From the NCBI RefSeq assembly GCF_015354245.1, contig NZ_JADKYZ010000011.1:124001-188000 (forward strand): a stretch of 64,000 bases of DNA, written 5' to 3'. Position numbers and translations under genes: made by a program. Source of the stretch: Diaphorobacter caeni (lineage in GTDB: Bacteria > Pseudomonadota > Gammaproteobacteria > Burkholderiales > Burkholderiaceae_C). Below, piece by piece: positions 11,379 to 48,918 of the stretch. The notes beneath the pieces are model-generated. The model saw only the letters and a list, made by a program, of their open reading frames with translations. It did not search any database and was not told the DNA's origin. Numbering within the stretch: position 1 is the stretch's first letter; each line of letters opens with the position of its first letter.

Positions 11379-12980
11379 TCAGGCGCGCCGGCGTTCGGCC
11401 TTGATGAGATCGGCGGCTTTCTCGCCGATGACGATCGAGCCCGCGTTCGTGTTGCCCGAGAGCAGCAGCGGCATGATCGACGCGTCGGCCACGCGCAGCC
11501 CCTGCACGCCGCGCACGCGCAGCTGCGGATCGACGACGGAGGAGGCGTCCGAGCCCATGCGGCAGGTGCCCACGGGATGGAAGATCGTCGTCGCGTATTC
11601 GCGGATGAAGCCCAGCACCTCGTCATCGGAATCGATGTGAAATCCAGGGCGATACTCGTCGGCCACGTAGGGCTGCATGGCGCGCGAACGCGCGATCTGC
11701 CGCGCCATGCGCACGCCGGCGATCATGGTCTGTTCATCGTGCTCGGTGGAGAGGTAGTTGAATCTGGCCCAGGGCGACGCGAAGGGGTCGGTGGAGCGCA
11801 GCTTCACCTCGCCTCGGCTAGAGGGCTGCAGCTGGCATACCGACATCGTGAAACCGGAGAAGTCATGTGGCTTGCCGGCGGTCATGTCGGCACTGATGGT
11901 GCCGAAGTGGAACTGGATGTCCGGCGTCCCGAGCGACTGCTTCGAGCGCGCGAACATGCCGCCAAGCTGAATCCCCGCAGCCACGGGACCGGCCTTGCGG
12001 AACATCCAGCGCATGCCGATGCGCATCTGGCCGAACCAGGTGCGGATGTCGTCATTGGTCGTGATCGGCTTGGTGCACTTGTAGATCAGGCGCGACTGCA
12101 GATGGTCCTGCAGGTTCTTGCCGACTTCCGGGAGATCGTGCACCACGTCGACTCCCTTGGCCTGCAGCGCCAGTGCGTCGCCCACGCCGGAGAGCATCAG
12201 CAACTGCGGAGTCTGCAGCGCTCCGGCGCTGAGGATCACCTCCTGCTTGCAGCGTGCTTCCTTCACCAGCCCTGCCTGACGGTAGCGCACGCCCACCGCG
12301 CGCTTGTTCTCGAAGATGACGGACATGGCCTGTGCATCGGTGGCCACCTGCAGGTTGTCCCCCGCGATGCCCGAGCGCAGATAGGCCTTGGCCGAAGAAC
12401 AGCGCAGGCCATTGCGCGTGGTGAGCTGGAAGTAGCCCGCGCCTTCCTGCTTTGCGCCGTTGAAATCGTTGGTGCGGGGAACTCCGATCTCGTTGGCGGC
12501 GCCGATGAAGGCCTCCACCAGTTCGTGCTTGTCGCGGATGTTGGAGACCGTCAGCGGACCGCTGCCGCCATGCAGCGAGCATTCGCCACGCTCGTTGCCC
12601 TCGGAGCGCTTGAAGTAGGGCAGGATGTCCTTCCAGCCCCAGCCAGGATTGCCGAGCGCTTCCCACTTGTCGAAATCCTGCGCCTGACCGCGGATGTAGA
12701 CCAGGCCATTGATCGAGCTGGAGCCGCCGAGCGTGCGTCCGCGCGGCTGGTAGATCTCGCGGTCGTTCAGATGCGGCTCGGGCTCGGACTTGAACTGCCA
12801 GTTCAATTCCGGATTGAACATGGTCTTGCCGTAGCCGATCGGGATGTGGATCCAGATGTTCTTGTCGGCGGGGCCTGCCTCCAGCAACAGCACGGAGGTG
12901 GTCTTGTCCTGCGCAAGACGTGCCGCCACCGCACAGCCCGCGGAGCCGGCGCCGACGACGATGTAGTCGAAATTTTGCAT
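11379..12980 (-). CDS. GMC family FAD-dependent alcohol dehydrogenase (choline dehydrogenase-like)
   Basis: This 533-residue protein opens with the FAD-binding motif DYIVVGAGSAGCAVAARL. GRTLGGSSSINGLVYIRG is the first GMC signature. The C-terminus carries FHPVGTCRMGSD with the catalytic His and SGNTNAGSIVIGEKAADLI with the second active-site residue as Asn. Such enzymes oxidise primary alcohols, choline among them, to aldehydes. The gene starts 11 bases after the reductase gene and precedes the sulfatase. The order suggests oxidation of the alcohol released by the sulfatase, with the aldehyde passed to the dehydrogenase at the head of the operon. Confidence 0.88.
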   Translation of the reverse strand: MQNFDYIVVGAGSAGCAVAARLAQDKTTSVLLLEAGPADKNIWIHIPIGYGKTMFNPELNWQFKSEPEPHLNDREIYQPRGRTLGGSSSINGLVYIRGQAQDFDKWEALGNPGWGWKDILPYFKRSEGNERGECSLHGGSGPLTVSNIRDKHELVEAFIGAANEIGVPRTNDFNGAKQEGAGYFQLTTRNGLRCSSAKAYLRSGIAGDNLQVATDAQAMSVIFENKRAVGVRYRQAGLVKEARCKQEVILSAGALQTPQLLMLSGVGDALALQAKGVDVVHDLPEVGKNLQDHLQSRLIYKCTKPITTNDDIRTWFGQMRIGMRWMFRKAGPVAAGIQLGGMFARSKQSLGTPDIQFHFGTISADMTAGKPHDFSGFTMSVCQLQPSSRGEVKLRSTDPFASPWARFNYLSTEHDEQTMIAGVRMARQIARSRAMQPYVADEYRPGFHIDSDDEVLGFIREYATTIFHPVGTCRMGSDASSVVDPQLRVRGVQGLRVADASIMPLLLSGNTNAGSIVIGEKAADLIKAERRRA

Positions 12981-12991
12981 GATTGTCCCGT

Positions 12992-13945
12992 TCAGATTTC
13001 AAGCGCCATCGGGCCCTGCGCCACGCGTGCGCAGCACAGCAGCACCTGACTTGCGCGCTCCTCGTCGCCCAGCAGGTAGTCGTTGTGTTCCGGCGTGCCC
13101 GCGCTGTAGGCGGTCTTGCAGGCACCGCAGACTCCCGCTTCGCAGGAGGATTCGCAGGTGATTCCCGCGTTGCGCAGCGCATCGAGCATCGTCTGGCCGG
13201 CCTCGATCGGCACGACCTTGTTCGAGCGCGTCAGATGCAGCTCGCTTGCGCCCGCGCTGAGCGCTGCCGCAGAGGCCTTGGGCGGCTCCGCGCCGAAGTA
13301 CTCGAAGTGCACGGCATCGTTCGGCCAGTGGGCCGTGGCGTCGCGGATCGCGGACATGAAGCCGCCCGGGCCGCAGAAGTACACATGCTTGCCGTCTTCG
13401 TGACGGGCCAGCAGCGATGCGATGTCGAGCCCCTTGGCCGGATCGCCGCCGTCGTGATGGACCGTCACGCGCTCGGAAGACGATGCGCCGTCAAGGCGCC
13501 GGCGAAACGCCGTGCGGTCCTCGTCACGCGTGCAGTAGTGCATCTCGAAGGATTCGCCGCGCGCGGCCAGCGTCTCCATCATCGCGAGGATCGGAGTGAT
13601 GCCGATGCCACCGGCAAGCAGCACCGAATGGCGTGCGCCGGACTGTATCGCAAAGAAGTTGTGCGGCTCGGAGACCTCGATCCAGTCTCCGGCGTGCACC
13701 TTCTCGTGCATCGCCTTCGATCCTCCGCGACCGCCCGGTGCGTTGAGCACGGCGATGCGGTAGCAGTCCACATCCGTGGGCGAGTTGCACAGTGAATAGC
13801 GGCGCGAGAGGCCGCCGGGGATCTTCACATCAATATGCGCGCCCGCCTCGAAACGCGGCAGCGCGCGATTCGCAGGATCCACCAACTCATACGACAAGAT
13901 TCCCTCGGCCTCGTGGGTCACCGAACGGACACGCAGTTTCAACAT
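12992..13945 (-). CDS. PDR/VanB-type oxygenase reductase
   Basis: This 317-residue protein has a flavin domain (RRYSLCN at 48-54), an NAD domain (GGIGITPIL at 112-120; YFCGPGGFM at 189-197) and a C-terminal plant-type [2Fe-2S] ferredoxin. Cys 268, 273 and 276 plus 304 or 305 are the cluster candidates. This domain order defines class IA reductases such as phthalate dioxygenase reductase and VanB. It lies 17 bases after the Rieske oxygenase gene and should supply it with electrons from NADH. Confidence 0.92.
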   Translation of the reverse strand: MLKLRVRSVTHEAEGILSYELVDPANRALPRFEAGAHIDVKIPGGLSRRYSLCNSPTDVDCYRIAVLNAPGGRGGSKAMHEKVHAGDWIEVSEPHNFFAIQSGARHSVLLAGGIGITPILAMMETLAARGESFEMHYCTRDEDRTAFRRRLDGASSSERVTVHHDGGDPAKGLDIASLLARHEDGKHVYFCGPGGFMSAIRDATAHWPNDAVHFEYFGAEPPKASAAALSAGASELHLTRSNKVVPIEAGQTMLDALRNAGITCESSCEAGVCGACKTAYSAGTPEHNDYLLGDEERASQVLLCCARVAQGPMALEI

Positions 13946-41613: not shown

Positions 41614-42567
41614 TTATCTGCGGGCCACGCGCACCCACCAGCGTGTGCGTTCGTGGAGCTTCACCGGCAGCGACTGGGTCAGCAGTTCGAGCACGCTGTC
41701 CGTGTCCTGCACTTGGAACGCACCGGACACGCGCAGGTCGGCGGCGTTGGGGTCGCACTGCAGGACACCTTCGCGGTAGCGCGCGAGCTCCTGCAGAAAA
41801 TCGGCCAGCCGCATGTTGTTGGCGTACAGAATGCCCTGCGTCCACGACGGTGCTTCGGGCGATGCGGCAGTCACCGGCTGGATGGCGCGGCTGTCGAAGC
41901 GCGTGCGTTCACCGGCGCGCACCACCACGGTGTCGCCGGATTCGTCCGGCGTGATCTTGACGGCGCCCTGCAGCACAGTGAGTTCCGTGTGGCGTTCGTG
42001 CTTGCGAACGACGAAGCGCGTGCCCAGCGCCTGCATTTGGCCTTCATCCGTGCGTACGATGAAAGGCGGCGCGTTGCTGTCGGCGGGATGCGCCGTCTCC
42101 ACCAGGATCTCGCCCGCGTATTGGCGCAGCAGCCGGGATTCGGCGGTGAACACCGCGTTGACCGACGTGCCGGTGTTGAGTGTCAGCCTGCTGCCGTCGG
42201 CCAGCTGGATGCTGCGGCTCTCGCCCTTGGCGGTGCGGAACTCCGCATTCCACATGTCCCACGGCAGATTGCGGTAGGCGAGCCAGCCCAGCGTCGGCGC
42301 GAAGAGGGCCAGCGCGGCCGTCCGCAAGACTTGCCTGCGGGCGGACAGCGGACGCGGGCGACCGAGCGTCGACATGCCAAGGCCTTTGGGGATGGCGTCG
42401 AACTGCTGCTTCAGCGCCTGCGCGCGCTGCCACATCTGCTCATGCTCGGCGCTTTGCTGGCGCCAGCGATCAAGCGCGGCCTGATCGGCTGCGGAGAAGT
42501 TCGACGCCCCCTGCCGGGTGACCCAGTGCACGGCTTCGTCAATGATGCTCGCGGTCTTGCGCGTCAT
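41614..42567 (-). CDS. FecR-family anti-sigma regulator
   Basis: The protein has 317 residues from the ATG at 42567, which overlaps the sigma-factor stop as ATGA. It has a cytoplasmic N-terminal FecR_N region (IIDEAVHWVTRQGASNFSAADQAALDRWRQQSAEHEQMWQRAQAL). A single membrane helix lies near 80-95 (RTAALALFAPTLGWLA). The periplasmic FecR domain shows ADGSRLTLNTGTSV and LGTRFVVRKHERHTELTVLQGAVKI. It relays the state of the FecA-like receptor to the sigma factor. Confidence 0.92.
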   Translation of the reverse strand: MTRKTASIIDEAVHWVTRQGASNFSAADQAALDRWRQQSAEHEQMWQRAQALKQQFDAIPKGLGMSTLGRPRPLSARRQVLRTAALALFAPTLGWLAYRNLPWDMWNAEFRTAKGESRSIQLADGSRLTLNTGTSVNAVFTAESRLLRQYAGEILVETAHPADSNAPPFIVRTDEGQMQALGTRFVVRKHERHTELTVLQGAVKITPDESGDTVVVRAGERTRFDSRAIQPVTAASPEAPSWTQGILYANNMRLADFLQELARYREGVLQCDPNAADLRVSGAFQVQDTDSVLELLTQSLPVKLHERTRWWVRVARR

Positions 42568-43136
42568 GCAGCGCACTCTGTCGAATTCAGCCTCGCGCAC
42601 AGGCATTGCTTGAAGCCCTGCGCGATGTAGCGGGTGACGGTGCGCAGACTGACCTGCAACTGCGCCGCGATCTCCTCGTACGCAAGCCCGTCGAGCTGCG
42701 CGAGCAGGAACGCGGTGCGGACCTTGTCCGGCAGCGCATGGAGCAGGGCGTCAAGTTCCAGCAGCGTCTCGAGCAGAATGGCCTGATCTTCGACGGACAT
42801 GGTCGCCGCCTCGGGCAACTGCTGCAAGGACTCGAGGTAGGCCCGCTCCAGCGAGCGGCGCTCCAGGTGATTGGCCAGCATGCGCTTGGCCATGGTGGTC
42901 AGATAGGCGCGCGGCTCGCGGATCTCCTCGAGGGCCTGTGACGCCCGCATCTTCCACATGCGCATGAAGACGTCCTGCGCGATGTCCGCCGCGTCCCCGC
43001 CGTGACCGAGCCTGCGATGCAGCCACGAGAGCAGCCATGGGTTGTGCTGCACGTACATGCTGCCGAGCGTGTGGCTTGCAGAGTGGTCGGCAGGTGAGAT
43101 CACGGCGGGTCCTCGGGTTGATCGGGCTGGGTTCAA
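42564..43136 (-). CDS. ECF sigma factor, FecI type
   Basis: This 190-residue protein has sigma region 2 (HNPWLLSWLHRRLGHGGDAADIAQDVFMRMWKM) and region 4 with a helix-turn-helix (LDGLAYEEIAAQLQVSLRTVTRYIAQGFKQCL). The size and sequence match iron-starvation sigma factors. The start at 43136 is the first ATG, and internal starts near residue 12 or 27 are possible. A Fur box lies 17 bases upstream of the ATG, so iron represses the gene. The targets should include the FecA-like receptor gene downstream. Confidence 0.92.
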   Translation of the reverse strand: MNPARSTRGPAVISPADHSASHTLGSMYVQHNPWLLSWLHRRLGHGGDAADIAQDVFMRMWKMRASQALEEIREPRAYLTTMAKRMLANHLERRSLERAYLESLQQLPEAATMSVEDQAILLETLLELDALLHALPDKVRTAFLLAQLDGLAYEEIAAQLQVSLRTVTRYIAQGFKQCLCARLNSTECAA

Positions 43137-43152
43137 CCTTTTATTTTACATA

Positions 43153-43171
43153 AATGATATCTATTCTCATT
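43153..43171 (-). promoter_or_regulatory. Fur box
   Basis: AATGATATCTATTCTCATT has perfect outer arms AATGA/TCATT. It matches 11 of 14 defined positions of the 7-1-7 Fur consensus TGATAAT-N-ATTATCA. It lies in an AT-rich patch directly upstream of the FecI-type sigma gene, where a promoter would be. Confidence 0.75.
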
Positions 43172-43202
43172 AAAACCCCGAAGAGGACGCAGCCTTGCAC
43201 GC

Positions 43203-44531
43203 TCAGAAGATGGTCATCGGCATCTCCGCGAGCAGTCTGATTTGATCCATGTTGGATTCGCCCTGCGCCTTGTTCACGCGGTGAACGCCGTAACGCAGCT
43301 GCAGCGACAGGCCTTTGGACCATCCCTCCTGAACCACGTAGCGCATGACCATGTCGCGTTCCCAATGTTTGCCCTGTGTGCCGCTGTAGCCGAGGTAGTT
43401 GGCGTAGACGGTGTTGAGGCGGCTGTTGTCTATGCCCGATCCTCGTGTGTAGGCCACGCCTGCGCTGAGGCCGGGCGTCACGAGTGCGCCGAGGTCCACG
43501 TCGTACTTGAGCTGCCAGGAGGCCTCACGCGGGCCGTTGAAATCGGAGAGCTGCATGGCGTTTTCGAGCCAGATGGAGCCACGGTTGGCGTAGTCGAACG
43601 GGTTGTCGCCGTTGACCTGCTGGTAGCCAAGGCCGAGCGTGTGCGGGCCGAAGGCGTAGGCGCTCATCAGGCTCCAGGTTGTGGTGTCGAGCGCGCCGGA
43701 CTTCGCTTTTCCGGTGTCGCGGCTGCTGTACAAATTCAGGCTGAACGACAGCGCCTTCTTGTCTGCAATGGGTAGTTTGTAGAAGCTGCCGAGATACCAG
43801 GTTTTCCAGTTGTCTTCGTATTCACCCCAATAACCCGTGAGCGAGAGGTTTCGGAGAGGCGTGTTCCAGGTGCCTCCGGCAAACAGGAAAGAATCGCCGC
43901 TGGCGCCGGAGTAGTTGGCCTGCAGCCTGTTGCCGTTCTTGCGGGCGCTGCGATCGGCCCATGCCGTGAAGCGTCCGGCCTGCAGCGCCAGCGTGGGAAT
44001 GTCGGCGCTGGTGATGAGCCAGCCCCGGTTGGTTTCCGGCAGCAGACGGGTATCGGACGAACTGAAGATCGGGTTCTTGGTGCGCATCTCTCCCCATTTG
44101 AATTCCGTGGAAGAAACGCGTGCCTTGAGCGCACCGCCCATGCGGCCGAAGCTGTCGGGGATGGCCAACCCATCCTTGGCGACATAGCGTGGTGTGGAGC
44201 GGGCGGAGTCGGCATCTGTTCCCAGATTGACGGCACCGTATGCGTGGGCATCCACGCCGAATCCGATGGGTCCGCGTGTGTAGCCCGACTGGAAGTTGAG
44301 CATCAGGCCATAGGCGCTTTCGCGCGCCTGTGTCTTTCCGCGTTCGCCGTTGGCCGCGCGAAAACTGCTGCCATTCTGGTAGTCCAGCCGCTCGAAGACA
44401 TAGCGGTTGAGCAGGTTCAGGTGGCTGCCTTCGAGGAAGCCCTTGGCATTGTCCTGTGCGGCCAGCGCGGTGTTGCCACTGCAACTGATGGTAGCCATCA
44501 ACGCGGCGAGGAGGGGACTTTGGAGTTTCAT
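43203..44531 (-). CDS. OprD-family outer-membrane porin
   Basis: The protein has 442 residues from the ATG at 44531, with a signal peptide MKLQSPLLAALMATISCSGNTALA. OprD-family landmarks are EGSHLNLLNRYVFERLDY, RESAYGLMLNFQSGYTRGPIGFGVDAHAYGAV, GEMRTKNPIFSSSDTRLLPETNRGWLI and the C-terminal QIRLLAEMPMTIF. OprD porins are 18-strand monomers that take up basic amino acids, small acids or metal complexes. It lies 37 bases after the pseudoazurin gene at the end of the riboswitch-controlled operon, which suggests it passes a cobalamin precursor, cobalt or another B12-related solute. Confidence 0.85.
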   Translation of the reverse strand: MKLQSPLLAALMATISCSGNTALAAQDNAKGFLEGSHLNLLNRYVFERLDYQNGSSFRAANGERGKTQARESAYGLMLNFQSGYTRGPIGFGVDAHAYGAVNLGTDADSARSTPRYVAKDGLAIPDSFGRMGGALKARVSSTEFKWGEMRTKNPIFSSSDTRLLPETNRGWLITSADIPTLALQAGRFTAWADRSARKNGNRLQANYSGASGDSFLFAGGTWNTPLRNLSLTGYWGEYEDNWKTWYLGSFYKLPIADKKALSFSLNLYSSRDTGKAKSGALDTTTWSLMSAYAFGPHTLGLGYQQVNGDNPFDYANRGSIWLENAMQLSDFNGPREASWQLKYDVDLGALVTPGLSAGVAYTRGSGIDNSRLNTVYANYLGYSGTQGKHWERDMVMRYVVQEGWSKGLSLQLRYGVHRVNKAQGESNMDQIRLLAEMPMTIF

Positions 44532-44568
44532 TCTGAGGGGCGCAGGAGGCGAGGAAGCGGCGTACCGC

Positions 44569-45018
44569 TCAGTGGGCAGACGCTGCGCGCGACGCGATCG
44601 CCTGGAAGCGCTGCCGCGCCTGATCCGGCGCTTCGCCCGGAATGGACATCGCGGACAACGGCGCATCACCCACCTGAATGAGCATCACCATGCCCATGGC
44701 GTAGTGGGGCGAGCACTTGATGCCGTAGACGCCCTTCTCGTTCAGGGTGATCTCGATCTCTTCGTTGATCTTGCCGACGAAAGCAGCGGCGTTGGCGGGC
44801 AGCATGCCTTCCACGGTGGCCGCGTTGTGGCCGGTGCTGGAAGCCAGATACTTGACGGTGTCACCCGGTGCGATCTTCAGCAGCTCCGGCTCATAGGACA
44901 TGGCGCCATGTGGCCCGCGATTGAGCATTTTGACTTCGAAGGTTTCGGCAAAAGCGGCGGTGGCCAGGCCCATGCTGAGAAGGGTCGCGGCCAGTCGGGT
45001 GATGGTTCGTGTGGGCAT
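44569..45018 (-). CDS. pseudoazurin-type cupredoxin
   Basis: The protein has 149 residues from the ATG at 45018, with a signal peptide MPTRTITRLAATLLSMGLATAAFA. Type 1 copper ligands are H64 (TGHNAATVEG), C102, H105 and M110 (KCSPHYAMGM), spaced as in pseudoazurins. These periplasmic proteins carry single electrons, for example to nitrite or nitrous oxide reductases, none of which is in the window. It lies 14 bases after the ABC ATPase gene. Its presence in a B12-controlled uptake operon is unusual. Confidence 0.9.
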   Translation of the reverse strand: MPTRTITRLAATLLSMGLATAAFAETFEVKMLNRGPHGAMSYEPELLKIAPGDTVKYLASSTGHNAATVEGMLPANAAAFVGKINEEIEITLNEKGVYGIKCSPHYAMGMVMLIQVGDAPLSAMSIPGEAPDQARQRFQAIASRAASAH

Positions 45019-45032
45019 GATGGGCCTTGAAT

Positions 45033-45839
45033 TCAAAGTGAAGGAATGGGCTTGAAGCGCAGCCATGTCGATCCGTCCTCGGGGTCGGTCAGCGCGGTGA
45101 TGTGCACCTGAAAAACCTGCTCGAGCAACTGAGCGGTGAGGACTTCCGCCGGAGGTCCCAGCGCGACCAGCTTGCCCGCGCACATGACGGCGAGCCGATC
45201 GCAGGCCATTGCCTGGTTGAGATCGTGCAGCGCGACGATCCGGGTGATCGGCCATTGGCGGATCAGCTGCATCAATGACAATTGCTGGTGCACGTCGAGA
45301 TGGTTGGTGGGTTCGTCAAGCAGCAGCACCCGTGGCGTCTGGGCAAGAGCGCGGGCGATGTGCACGCGCTGGCGCTCGCCTCCCGAGAGCGTGTGCCATG
45401 TGCCGTCGGCTTTGGCCCCCATGCCAACCGCATTCAGGGCGTCATCGACGATGCGGTGGTCGTCGGCCTGAAACGGTTGCAGCGCCGACAGCCACGGCGT
45501 GCGGCCCAGTTCGACAGCGTCTCTGACGGTGATGGCGTCCTGCGTCTCGGCCAGTTGCGATACGAAGGCGAGATGTCGCGCTATGTCGCGCTGGCGCAGT
45601 TCCGTCAGCGGCCGCTGGTGCAAGCGCACGCTGCCGTCATGCGGCCTGGTGACGCCGCATAGCATGCGCAGCAGACTCGATTTGCCGGACCCGTTGGGGC
45701 CGATCAGTCCCAGCAGCTCACCCTCGTGAATTGAAAGCGAGACCTGCTCGACGATGCGAACATGCCTTGCACGCAGGCTGACGTCGATGGCCTCAAGCAC
45801 CACGGAGGCTCCAGTGGAGGGATTGCGCGTTGAAGTCAT
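45033..45839 (-). CDS. ABC transporter ATPase, FecE/BtuD-like
   Basis: The protein has 268 residues from the ATG at 45839, which overlaps the permease stop as ATGA. It has Walker A GPNGSGKSS (47-55), the signature LSGGERQRVHIARAL (from 151), Walker B VLLLDEPTNHLD (from 171) and the H-loop ALHDLNQ. It belongs to the iron-siderophore/vitamin B12 uptake subclass. A much longer open frame upstream is only the other-frame reading of the permease gene. It powers the adjacent permease under the riboswitch. Confidence 0.92.
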   Translation of the reverse strand: MTSTRNPSTGASVVLEAIDVSLRARHVRIVEQVSLSIHEGELLGLIGPNGSGKSSLLRMLCGVTRPHDGSVRLHQRPLTELRQRDIARHLAFVSQLAETQDAITVRDAVELGRTPWLSALQPFQADDHRIVDDALNAVGMGAKADGTWHTLSGGERQRVHIARALAQTPRVLLLDEPTNHLDVHQQLSLMQLIRQWPITRIVALHDLNQAMACDRLAVMCAGKLVALGPPAEVLTAQLLEQVFQVHITALTDPEDGSTWLRFKPIPSL

Positions 45840-46885
45840 GCGCGTCCTCCGCGTCCTTTGAGCAGGATGCATGCGAAGACTGGAGCACCCACCAGCGCGG
45901 TGATCACGCCGATGGGCAGCACCTGTCCCGGAATCATGGTGCGCGAAAGCACATCCGCGGCGATCAGAAAGATGGCACCCATGAGCGCACTGGCAGGAAT
46001 GAGGTGACGGTGGCGCACGCCCACAAGCAGGCGTGCCGCGTGGGGAATGACGAGGCCGACGAAGCCGATGGCGCCGACGATGGAAACCATCACGGCCGTG
46101 ATCAGCGCGGCGGCCAGAAGCAGCACGATCTGGACCCGGCGCACCGGCACGCCCAGCGCCGATGCCGATTCCGCGCCGAAGGTGAAGGCGTCGAGCGCGC
46201 GTGCATGCAGCAGGCAGATGAGCAGACCGGCCAGCGCCATCGATGCAGTCAGCCAGGTGTCGGGCCAGCGCACGCCGCTGAGATTGCCCAGCAGCCAGAA
46301 CATGATGCCGCGCGCCTGCTCGGCGCTGCCGGACTTGGTGATGATCAGCGAGGTGAGGGCGTTGAACAGCTGCGATCCGGCGATGCCCGCGAGCACGATC
46401 TGCCCGCTGTTGCGCAGCCCGCCGCCGCCCGCCGCATGCGCCAGCAGCGCGACCAGCGCGAACGCACAGACCGCGCCGAAGAAGGCACCGGTCGTCATCG
46501 AGATGGCACCGGCTCCCAGACCCGCGACGGACACCAGCACCGCGCCGGTGGACGCACCGGCGGATATGCCCAGAAGATAGGGTTCGGCCAGAGCATTGCG
46601 CAGCAGGGATTGAAGAATCACGCCCGCAATCGCCAAACCCGCGCCGCAGCTGGCCGCCACCAGAGCGCGCGGCAGCCGGTAGTTCCACACGATGCCCTGG
46701 GTGATGGGGTCGAGCGCATGCTGGCCGCCCAGAAGCTTGTTCGACAGCACCTGCAGCACGGTGGTCGCCGAGATGTCCGTTTCGCCGATGGCGATGCCCA
46801 GCGCGATGGAGACGGTGATGAGCAGCACCGGCGCCATCGTTATCGAGCCAAGGCGCAGCCAGCCGCCGGCCGAACACAATCGCAT
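45836..46885 (-). CDS. FecCD-family ABC permease (BtuC-like)
   Basis: This 349-residue protein has about nine or ten membrane helices. Family motifs are WNYRLPRALVAASCGAGLAIAGVILQSLLRNALAEPYLLGISAGASTGAVL, and GAIGFVGLVIPHAARLLVG near the C-terminus, the coupling region with the ATPase. It transports iron chelates, cobalamin or heme in other bacteria. It lies between the binding-protein and ATPase genes. The cobalamin riboswitch upstream argues for a B12-related substrate. Confidence 0.92.
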   Translation of the reverse strand: MRLCSAGGWLRLGSITMAPVLLITVSIALGIAIGETDISATTVLQVLSNKLLGGQHALDPITQGIVWNYRLPRALVAASCGAGLAIAGVILQSLLRNALAEPYLLGISAGASTGAVLVSVAGLGAGAISMTTGAFFGAVCAFALVALLAHAAGGGGLRNSGQIVLAGIAGSQLFNALTSLIITKSGSAEQARGIMFWLLGNLSGVRWPDTWLTASMALAGLLICLLHARALDAFTFGAESASALGVPVRRVQIVLLLAAALITAVMVSIVGAIGFVGLVIPHAARLLVGVRHRHLIPASALMGAIFLIAADVLSRTMIPGQVLPIGVITALVGAPVFACILLKGRGGRA

Positions 46886-46933
46886 GCGTGGTTCCTCGTG
46901 TTGAATGCGGTTGGAATTGGAGAAGAGGCGCGC

Positions 46934-47956
46934 CTATTTGCCAGCGTTCTCGAGCACGAGCACCGCATCGGCGATCTGCTCCATGCCGTCGACCATGCGG
47001 ATCGATCCCTGCAGCGCGTCGGCGTCGACGATGACGATGCGGCTGTTCTTCACCGCGTCCATGTGCTGGGCGACGGGGTCCTTTTTGAGGAACTCGAGTT
47101 TCTTCTGATAGTCATCGGCGGGGAAACGGCGGCGATCCATGCGCGCGATGATGAGCACCGACGGGTTGGCTCTGGCGATGGTTTCCCAGCCCACGGTGGG
47201 CCATTCTTCGGCGGAGGTCACGATGTTGCGCAGGCCGAGCGACTGCATCATGTAGCCCGCGACGCCCTTCTGGCCCGCCATGTAGGGGTCGATGGCGAGG
47301 TCGGCGCTCGAGAACCAGAGCGCGGCCGAGAGGCTCTGGAGTCTGGCCGACGCCACCTTGGAGATGGCCTTCGATTGACGCTGCTGGAGGTCCTTGACCA
47401 GCGCATCGCCCTTGGCTTCGACGTCGAAGATCTGAGACAGCTGGCGCACGCTCTTGTAGAGCGCCTGCACGTCATACGATGCGGTGCGGGTGCCGTCCGC
47501 GCCGCTCAGGTTGTTCTTGCCTTCGCAGTCCGACGGCATGGCATAGGTGGCGATATGCAGGTCGTGAAACTGCTCGCGCGTGCCGACTGCGCCGTCCTTG
47601 CCGACCATCCATTCAAACTGCGACACGAGCAGGGCGGGGCGCTTACCGATGACGGATTCAAAACTCGGTGCATTGTCCGAAAGGCGTGGCACCTTGTCGT
47701 TGACCGCCTTGAACCGCTGCTGCACCGGATTGAACCAGAGCGCCGTGCCGACGACTTTGGAGCCCAGCCCCAGCGCATAGAGCATCTCGGTGCCGGCCTG
47801 ACCGATGGTGACTGCGGAAGCGGGGGGCTTGTCGAATTTGACGGCGTAGCCGCAGTTCTGCACTTCCACCGGATACTGGGTGGCTTGCGCCGCCATGGGA
47901 GAGACGACGGCAACGGCGGCGACGAGCGAGGTGGCAAACAAAGTTTGAATCGACAT
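46934..47956 (-). CDS. periplasmic substrate-binding protein of B12/iron-chelate ABC transporter
   Basis: The protein has 340 residues from the ATG at 47956, preceded by GAAAGGAAG. A signal peptide (to about residue 25, PMAAQA) is followed by VEVQNCGYAVKFDKPPASAVTIGQAGTEMLYALGLGSKVVGTALW, typical of class III binding proteins (FepB/BtuF). ANPSVLIIARMDRRRFP lies in the second lobe. It is the first gene after the cobalamin riboswitch, so cobalamin, cobinamide or a cobalt complex is the likely ligand. An iron chelate cannot be excluded from the protein alone. Confidence 0.88.
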   Translation of the reverse strand: MSIQTLFATSLVAAVAVVSPMAAQATQYPVEVQNCGYAVKFDKPPASAVTIGQAGTEMLYALGLGSKVVGTALWFNPVQQRFKAVNDKVPRLSDNAPSFESVIGKRPALLVSQFEWMVGKDGAVGTREQFHDLHIATYAMPSDCEGKNNLSGADGTRTASYDVQALYKSVRQLSQIFDVEAKGDALVKDLQQRQSKAISKVASARLQSLSAALWFSSADLAIDPYMAGQKGVAGYMMQSLGLRNIVTSAEEWPTVGWETIARANPSVLIIARMDRRRFPADDYQKKLEFLKKDPVAQHMDAVKNSRIVIVDADALQGSIRMVDGMEQIADAVLVLENAGK

Positions 47957-48104
47957 CAGAATCTTCCTTTCGGTCCGGCCGAAAAGGGATCTGAAAGCGA
48001 AGCGCGCCACATGCCGATGGGCCCGCAAGTGCGCGAGGTAGCGCGTGTGCCAGCCGGAAGGGGAGAGGTACTGCTCACTTCCCGGACACCCCGCCGGCAA
48101 TGAA

Positions 48105-48292
48105 TAGGTGGTACTTGAGGCAGGTCTCCTGACTGACAAATCCTCGCTGCGCCATCGCCTTCCCGAACGCGTGTTCAGTGGCTTCTTTGATGGCGTGCTC
48201 ATTGCCTACAGTTGCGGGGGCAGTTCCATTTCGCGGATCGCGCCTGAAGGGCTCGATCGATGGATTCCCTCATGCACGGGCGACCGCCGATG
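48105..48292 (-). ncRNA. cobalamin (adenosylcobalamin) riboswitch
   Basis: Read on the minus strand the element shows GAGGGAATCC, then the B12-box-facing stretch CCCCCGCAACTGT, then CACTG, CGGGAAGGCGATGG, GCGAGGA and the closing B12 box CAGTCAGGAGACCTGCC. The order matches the cobalamin riboswitch consensus. It sits in the 431-base gap between the GNAT gene and the binding-protein gene and faces the ABC operon. About 150 bases of expression platform follow before the start at 47956. It should lower expression of the whole operon when cobalamin is abundant. Exact ends are approximate. Confidence 0.93.
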
Positions 48293-48387
48293 CACGTCCT
48301 TGCGGAACCAAAAGATGCGTTAATGTAGCCCATTTCACAGCGTCTCGCGGCGGTGACGCTGGAGCTGACCGTAGATAAGGTGCCCGT

Positions 48388-48918
48388 TTGAACCACTCCC
48401 CTTCGCCATTGATCCAGTGTGTGAAAGACGTTTCACAGGTATCGGAATTCCTGCACAACGCGCGCACCGACATGTTCGCCGAGCGCGTGGATGTGGACGA
48501 GATTCCCGCAGATGTGCGGCGTTTCAACGAGGTCTATGCATCGGGTGACGGGTGCATGCTGGCGGCATGGGCCGAGGATGACCGCGTGGTCGCGAGCATT
48601 GCTTACCGGCCTTATGACGGTCGCTTTCCGCATTTGAATCTGATGCAAGGGAAGGTGGTCGAGGTGGTGCGGCTCTATGTCGATCCGGCGTGGCGTCGCC
48701 AGGGGCTGGCGGCGCGGCTCTACGCTGAACTCAGGCGCCTGGCATTGGAGCAAGGCGTTCAGGTGTTCTATCTGCACACCCATCCATTTCTGGCGGGAGC
48801 GGAAGCCTTCTGGCGAATGCAGGGGTTCGAGCTGCTGTGCCGCGATGCCGATCCGGTCTGGCAGACCATCCACATGCAGGCCTTGATCAGACCACCCGCA
48901 CCCTCAACGAAGCGATGA
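48388..48918 (+). CDS. GNAT-family N-acetyltransferase
   Basis: This 176-residue protein has the acetyl-CoA motif VVRLYVDPAWRRQGLAARLYAEL (about 92-114) followed by ALEQGVQVFYLHTHPFLAGAEAFWRMQGFEL, the usual last part of the fold. The substrate is unknown. It is divergent from the riboswitch-controlled operon and overlaps the 3' end of the pentapeptide-repeat gene tail to tail by 32 bases. Confidence 0.85.
   Translation: MNHSPSPLIQCVKDVSQVSEFLHNARTDMFAERVDVDEIPADVRRFNEVYASGDGCMLAAWAEDDRVVASIAYRPYDGRFPHLNLMQGKVVEVVRLYVDPAWRRQGLAARLYAELRRLALEQGVQVFYLHTHPFLAGAEAFWRMQGFELLCRDADPVWQTIHMQALIRPPAPSTKR

Follow-up and report, generated by a model that had tools for sequence, protein, structure and literature searches.

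Within a stretch of 64,000 nucleotides (nt) from Diaphorobacter caeni (positions 124,001 to 188,000 of contig NZ_JADKYZ010000011.1, assembly GCF_015354245.1; hereafter the window), a cobalamin riboswitch heads a tight row of five minus-strand genes, in which the three components of an ATP-binding cassette (ABC) importer are joined by a pseudoazurin and an outer-membrane porin. The riboswitch, an adenosylcobalamin (AdoCbl) aptamer of family RF00174 (48102..48327), matches the full model (positions 1-189 of 189) at 88.8 bits (E 1.4e-20), against a gathering score of 31.5. It is followed by a CbtJ-like periplasmic metal-chelate-binding protein of 340 amino acids (aa) (46934..47956; Peripla_BP_2, above the Pfam cut-off), the AlphaFold model of which has the fold of such proteins (predicted local distance difference test score 89.4), a CbtK-like FecCD permease of 349 aa (45836..46885; PF01032, 291 bits, above the Pfam cut-off), a CbtL-like ATPase of 268 aa (45033..45839; PF00005, ABC_tran, above the Pfam cut-off), a pseudoazurin with a signal-like N-terminus (44569..45018; Copper-bind, above the Pfam cut-off, and TIGR02375, 125.3 bits for a cut-off of 109.85) and an OprD-family porin of 442 aa (43203..44531; PF03573, 386.9 bits, above the Pfam cut-off, the alignment spanning profile positions 1-393 of 394). 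Gaps along the row are 48, -4, 14 and 37 nt, in the order of transcription. This bears out the layout described in an earlier, sequence-only reading of the window, namely a riboswitch facing a binding-protein/permease/ATPase set with the last two genes closely spaced behind it. The same reading had considered that a promoter might separate these two genes from riboswitch control, and a simple consensus scan of positions 42400-48700 revealed no promoter-like site inside the row, its sole match lying beyond OprD (43170-43143); this is a weak test because about one match is expected by chance. Terminator-like matches were no commoner than in shuffles.

Comparison with related loci confirms that this arrangement is real and conserved. 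A family sample of 120 genomes yielded 43 with any binding-protein match and three with a clear orthologue, i.e. the window genome (G000), G018 (81% identity) and G004 (80%). A scan of 84,980 genomes, one per species, with two peptide patterns taken from a three-sequence alignment added 37 loci in Comamonas, Acidovorax, Lampropedia, Rhodoferax, Ottowia, Lautropia, Roseomonas-type bacteria, Pseudomonas and Brenneria, which are not a census since the two patterns favour close relatives. Together with the window, L042, L043 and L128 (L129, from the same genome as L058, was left out), these make up the 41 loci considered here. The binding protein is followed by permease and ATPase in all 41, and RF00174 scores above its gathering threshold just upstream of the binding-protein gene in 36. 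Among the remaining five, an exact B12 box is present in L128 (which was not scanned with Rfam) and in L060, the latter also giving a sub-threshold match (25.6 bits); L059, L064 and L083 give no Rfam match upstream of the binding-protein gene. L060 (4631-10954), from Lautropia dentalis, is unusual in that two tandem CbtJ-like genes flank one permease-ATPase-pseudoazurin set, the permease and ATPase coming after the first of them.

Pseudoazurin is found at 22 of the 41 loci, comprising 14/14 betaproteobacterial and 8/8 alphaproteobacterial ones, and at 0/19 gammaproteobacterial loci (in the stretches read, the remaining genome not having been searched), and the binding-protein tree divides along this very line (support 100/97). 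Its gene comes immediately after that of the ATPase in 21 of the 22, within 34 nt in 20 and at 211 nt in L060, distances that rest on script-chosen start codons. With a riboswitch at 36 of 41 loci and pseudoazurin directly behind the ATPase in 21, the arrangement exceeds chance, and the doubt raised at the outset that the association might not be conserved is thereby answered. The odd one out is Ottowia sp. oral taxon 894 (L059), where pseudoazurin is encoded on the opposite strand at a distance of about 7 kb, with a cobalamin riboswitch of its own (50.9 bits, 3832-3516) about 200 nt before its start. All 22 proteins share residues H64, C102, H105 and M110 of the window pseudoazurin, which we take to be the type-1 copper ligands, and in the tree they form a single clade (100/99) that excludes the 17 other pseudoazurins; one long-branched row was dropped from this tree (with that row, support is 97/99). 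The window genome has one TIGR02375 match, the operon pseudoazurin itself, and no NirK above cut-off (NosZ and NirS were not searched). On plasmids, the pseudoazurin matches 352 records, and of the 25 listed, the nine loci that were read all encode binding protein, permease, ATPase and pseudoazurin with an upstream B12 box; they include Rhodobacter capsulatus SB1003, Ensifer, Paracoccus, Shinella and S. fredii. A gene for an S-adenosylmethionine (SAM)-dependent methyltransferase comes after pseudoazurin in R. capsulatus and Ensifer (L143, L144) and after the ATPase in S. meliloti ml46 (L140), and in R. capsulatus another Cbt-like permease-ATPase pair lies upstream.

The porin adjoins the operon in 10 loci of the 41, eight times directly behind pseudoazurin, once convergently (L043) and once directly behind the ATPase (L072, a Pseudomonas without pseudoazurin at the locus). 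Two plasmid loci out of the nine likewise have an adjoining OprD. While the window genome has a single PF03573 match, and 7 of 10 genomes searched have any OprD, the Pseudomonas genome has 15, of which the copy adjoining the ABC genes clusters with the OprDs of the Burkholderiales operons (100/99). The same clade also takes in (100/100) the OprD next to L123, a locus of the second class described below. Genes for HGSNAT-like acyltransferases occur near members of this subfamily in Pseudomonas (L072, 8478-9641) and Comamonas testosteroni (L175, 8654-9823), the latter with a Fur-family regulator adjacent.

What does the transporter import? Its nearest functionally reported relative is CbtJKL, encoded on Sinorhizobium meliloti pSymB, which is described as an ABC cobalt importer required at trace cobalt (PMC7689651, PMC4207669, PMC12239276), controlled by an adenosylcobalamin riboswitch and at first taken for a cobalamin transporter (PMC7689651). 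The two systems have in common a binding protein, a FecCD permease, an ATPase and an upstream B12 box or riboswitch. Compared with the window proteins, those of S. meliloti 1021 pSymB are 47.7% (binding protein, over 321 aa), 64% (permease, over 325 aa) and 51.8% (ATPase, over 255 aa) identical, and the S. meliloti binding protein keeps 70 of the 86 residues that are invariant across the 41 orthologues. Its replicon, B12 box and gene order lead us to infer that the matched locus is cbtJKL, the copy in the record carrying no annotation. The difference is that, around the S. meliloti 1021 genes, the 12 kb read contain no pseudoazurin or OprD match. Judging from homology and regulation, the window transporter is therefore most likely a CbtJKL-type cobalt importer.

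The genomes that carry the operon fit this assignment. CbiC/CobH is present in 39 of 40 carriers (a set in which G128 and G419 are apparently the same genome) versus 20 of the 120 family genomes, two of these 20 being carriers themselves, and CobN is present in 36 of 40. In addition, the operon has cob genes next to it in Paracoccus yeei, two Comamonas plasmids and Pseudosulfitobacter, CobO adjoins it in Comamonas aquatica (L055) and the CobN gene of G004 (3742477-3745806) lies within L043.

A second class of ABC-pseudoazurin loci emerged from a survey of 300 genomes of the order, which gave 27 pseudoazurin places in 25 genomes. Three of these belonged to loci like the operon, and in nine more a FecCD-type ABC set likewise precedes pseudoazurin. 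In the nine loci read at length (L043, L118, L120-L126), an FhuD-like binding protein, a permease, an ATPase and a pseudoazurin are encoded, in some with a major facilitator superfamily (MFS) protein, and OprD is divergent in L123 and follows in L043. Fur-box-like sites better than nearly all shuffles precede 4 of the 11 class-II starts tested. A comparable row in Actinobacillus pleuropneumoniae (binding protein, permease, ATPase, pseudoazurin, binding protein; APPSER1_09785-09805) is tabulated under iron-starvation upregulation in PMC12507848, where its two value columns are opposite in sign; the likeness is one of consecutive genes in an iron-starvation study, the sequences not having been compared. 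It is likely, albeit not proven, that the second class is the iron counterpart of the cobalt operon. Two related oddities are L043 (1141-19351, in G004), in which two ABC-pseudoazurin systems face each other with one OprD between them, near CobN, and L130 (9611-12535), which encodes a TonB-dependent receptor of 974 aa whose N-terminal domain resembles pseudoazurin (up to 42% identity to class II); the copper site of this domain looks lost because its Cys ligand position appears to read Gly.

Taken as a whole, these observations are probably best explained by a CbtJKL-type cobalt importer equipped with two dedicated extras for TonB-independent uptake of a chelate. The operon would be expressed when adenosylcobalamin is scarce, whereupon (i) a small soluble cobalt chelate, such as a cobalt-amino-acid or carboxylate complex, would cross the outer membrane via OprD, without TonB, (ii) pseudoazurin would act on the chelate once it is in the periplasm, most likely through a one-electron reaction converting inert Co(III) chelates into labile Co(II), or else as a metal relay, (iii) the binding protein would capture the metal or the chelate and (iv) the permease and ATPase would import cobalt for insertion into the corrin ring. 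That pseudoazurin and OprD are both functional parts of the system, rather than passengers, can be held with good confidence. We propose a redox role for pseudoazurin far more tentatively, on the basis of general chemistry (Co(III) complexes are inert and Co(II) complexes labile) and of an analogy with FtrABCD/EfeUOB. In these systems, a periplasmic cupredoxin serves a metal importer, as proposed here for the operon, and the cupredoxins are discussed as redox parts in PMC11966278, but the permease is of the Ftr1 type and not ABC, the cupredoxins are of other families and the metal is iron. Of the options raised in the sequence-only reading, a cobalt complex with electron transfer by pseudoazurin now stands up best; its cobalt half is well supported by homology, and its electron-transfer half is conjecture. 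A broader scenario, in which an OprD subfamily has evolved for entry of cobalt chelates and a specialised pseudoazurin clade reduces or relays cobalt, with an iron version built on FhuD-like proteins and at times MFS or OprD, is doubtful as a complete package. If true, "ABC metal importer plus cupredoxin" would be a general, so far unrecognised class.

Several observations weigh against this picture. No experiment on the genes of the operon was found in the literature searched. OprD is next to the operon at just 10 of the 41 loci. C. testosteroni moreover encodes another OprD that falls in this clade but is without ABC genes of this kind in the 20 kb that were read, so porin and operon are strongly but not exclusively linked. 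In S. meliloti, Pseudosulfitobacter and Sagittula, the ABC genes occur with no pseudoazurin match in the stretch read; since S. meliloti and the gammaproteobacterial carriers do without an adjacent pseudoazurin, this protein is accessory and not essential to the transporter, and perhaps serves particular chelates. The enrichment of CbiC/CobH (10 of 11 carriers taken as the same family versus 18 of 117 non-carriers, p = 5.5e-7, the carriers being a pool of two sources) is computed on relatives that are not independent, and within the even sample it comes down to two of three carriers (p = 0.07). Four carriers, two of them apparently one genome, lack CobN. G004 has the whole operon set, two pseudoazurins and CobN, but no CbiC and only four TP-methylase matches (vs eight or nine in five other genomes searched), so a corrin ring is not expected there. 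The window genome also has another possible cobalt importer, a HupE gene on the same strand as, and about 4 kb below, another cobalamin riboswitch. At L038 of this genome (C29, 6206-13048), the minus strand carries a cobalamin riboswitch (12770-13048) and, from about 1.1 kb below it, genes for an FhuA/FoxA-like TonB receptor, HupE and a B12-binding radical SAM protein, which, if transcribed together, could possibly form a TonB-type cobalt route.

Alternatively, the operon could import cobalamin, cobinamide or another corrinoid or precursor, with OprD admitting a small precursor and the ABC genes being a divergent BtuFCD; the sequence-only reading had found the set to fit B12 uptake and had raised a smaller precursor as cargo. 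Riboswitch control and a FecCD-type ABC importer are indeed shared with BtuB-BtuFCD, carrier G004 has no corrin-ring genes and BtuC models do match the permease at 207 and 213.9 bits, yet these scores are far below their cut-offs (334 and 461, respectively), as is that of BtuD (138.7 bits for 281), and no BtuF model is matched at E <= 0.01. As for EitABCD, from E. coli plasmids, the EitA model (NF052484) is matched at 263.1 bits, far below its 640-bit cut-off; binding proteins on E. coli plasmids, which are presumably EitA although their records give no such name, are about 35% identical to that of the window. Contrary to BtuB-BtuFCD, the window operon has no TonB receptor, whereas two other riboswitch loci in the same genome (L037, L040) encode one together with a binding protein and a permease (on the BtuB model, the C33 receptor reaches 416.5 bits, for a cut-off of 599.7). 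Nearly all carriers have a corrin-ring gene, and the four Roseomonas-type carriers tested have no BtuB-model match above 103 bits. All this, added to the homology to CbtJKL, makes corrinoid import improbable, and B12 uptake is probably the wrong assignment.

A cobalt importer might also use its pseudoazurin otherwise, as a periplasmic relay that hands Co(II) to the binding protein or as a copper-binding guard against misloading. We consider this about as plausible as the redox role, and it is not exclusive with the cobalt-chelate explanation preferred here. It would suit the complete ligand set in 22/22 proteins, the signal-like N-termini, the position beside the importer and the absence of a partner reductase among the five genes, although a type-1 site normally prefers copper and the FtrABCD/EfeUOB cupredoxins are discussed as redox parts in PMC11966278. 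Finally, both extras might be downstream by chance, pseudoazurin being an ordinary electron carrier of denitrification and OprD a general amino-acid porin. The S. meliloti locus, with neither gene within the 12 kb read, and best PDB matches to ordinary pseudoazurins and Porin D would agree with this, but the linkage spans alpha- and betaproteobacteria, the Ottowia pseudoazurin has its own riboswitch, the only pseudoazurin of the window genome is the one in the operon, with no NirK above cut-off in a search that did not cover NosZ or NirS, and the OprD subfamily adjoins such transporters in different classes, which together leave the idea with very little to recommend it.

The row has neighbours on both sides. 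Genes for an FecI-like sigma factor, an FecR-like protein and a TonB siderophore receptor (43136-38737, minus strand) begin 66 nt after OprD and are preceded by a promoter-like site and their own Fur-box-like site. Since homologues are found near just 1 of 52 related loci searched (L149, where extracytoplasmic function sigma factor and FecR homologues, 27-28% identical, lie upstream of the operon), they are treated as a distinct unit; the original description of an OprD porin "instead of" a TonB receptor needs a correction, in that the operon itself has no such receptor but a TonB locus does follow it. On the other side, a GNAT acetyltransferase gene (48388..48918, plus strand; PF00583) is divergent and not downstream of the riboswitch, and its homologues adjoin the operon in nine Comamonadaceae-type loci with OprD (window included) and both Comamonas plasmids.

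The importer is thus of a known type, and what is new are the pseudoazurin and OprD additions; no earlier report of the operon was found within the limited literature collection searched. According to PMC7689651, no cobalt-specific outer-membrane receptor has been confirmed so far. The operon offers a candidate porin for the passage of cobalt across the outer membrane and, for a cobalt importer of known type, a candidate redox or metal partner in the periplasm; both are present in culturable bacteria such as C. testosteroni (porin and pseudoazurin) or, for pseudoazurin, R. capsulatus. It further suggests that pseudoazurin may have a role outside denitrification, as part of a design that would be shared with iron import.

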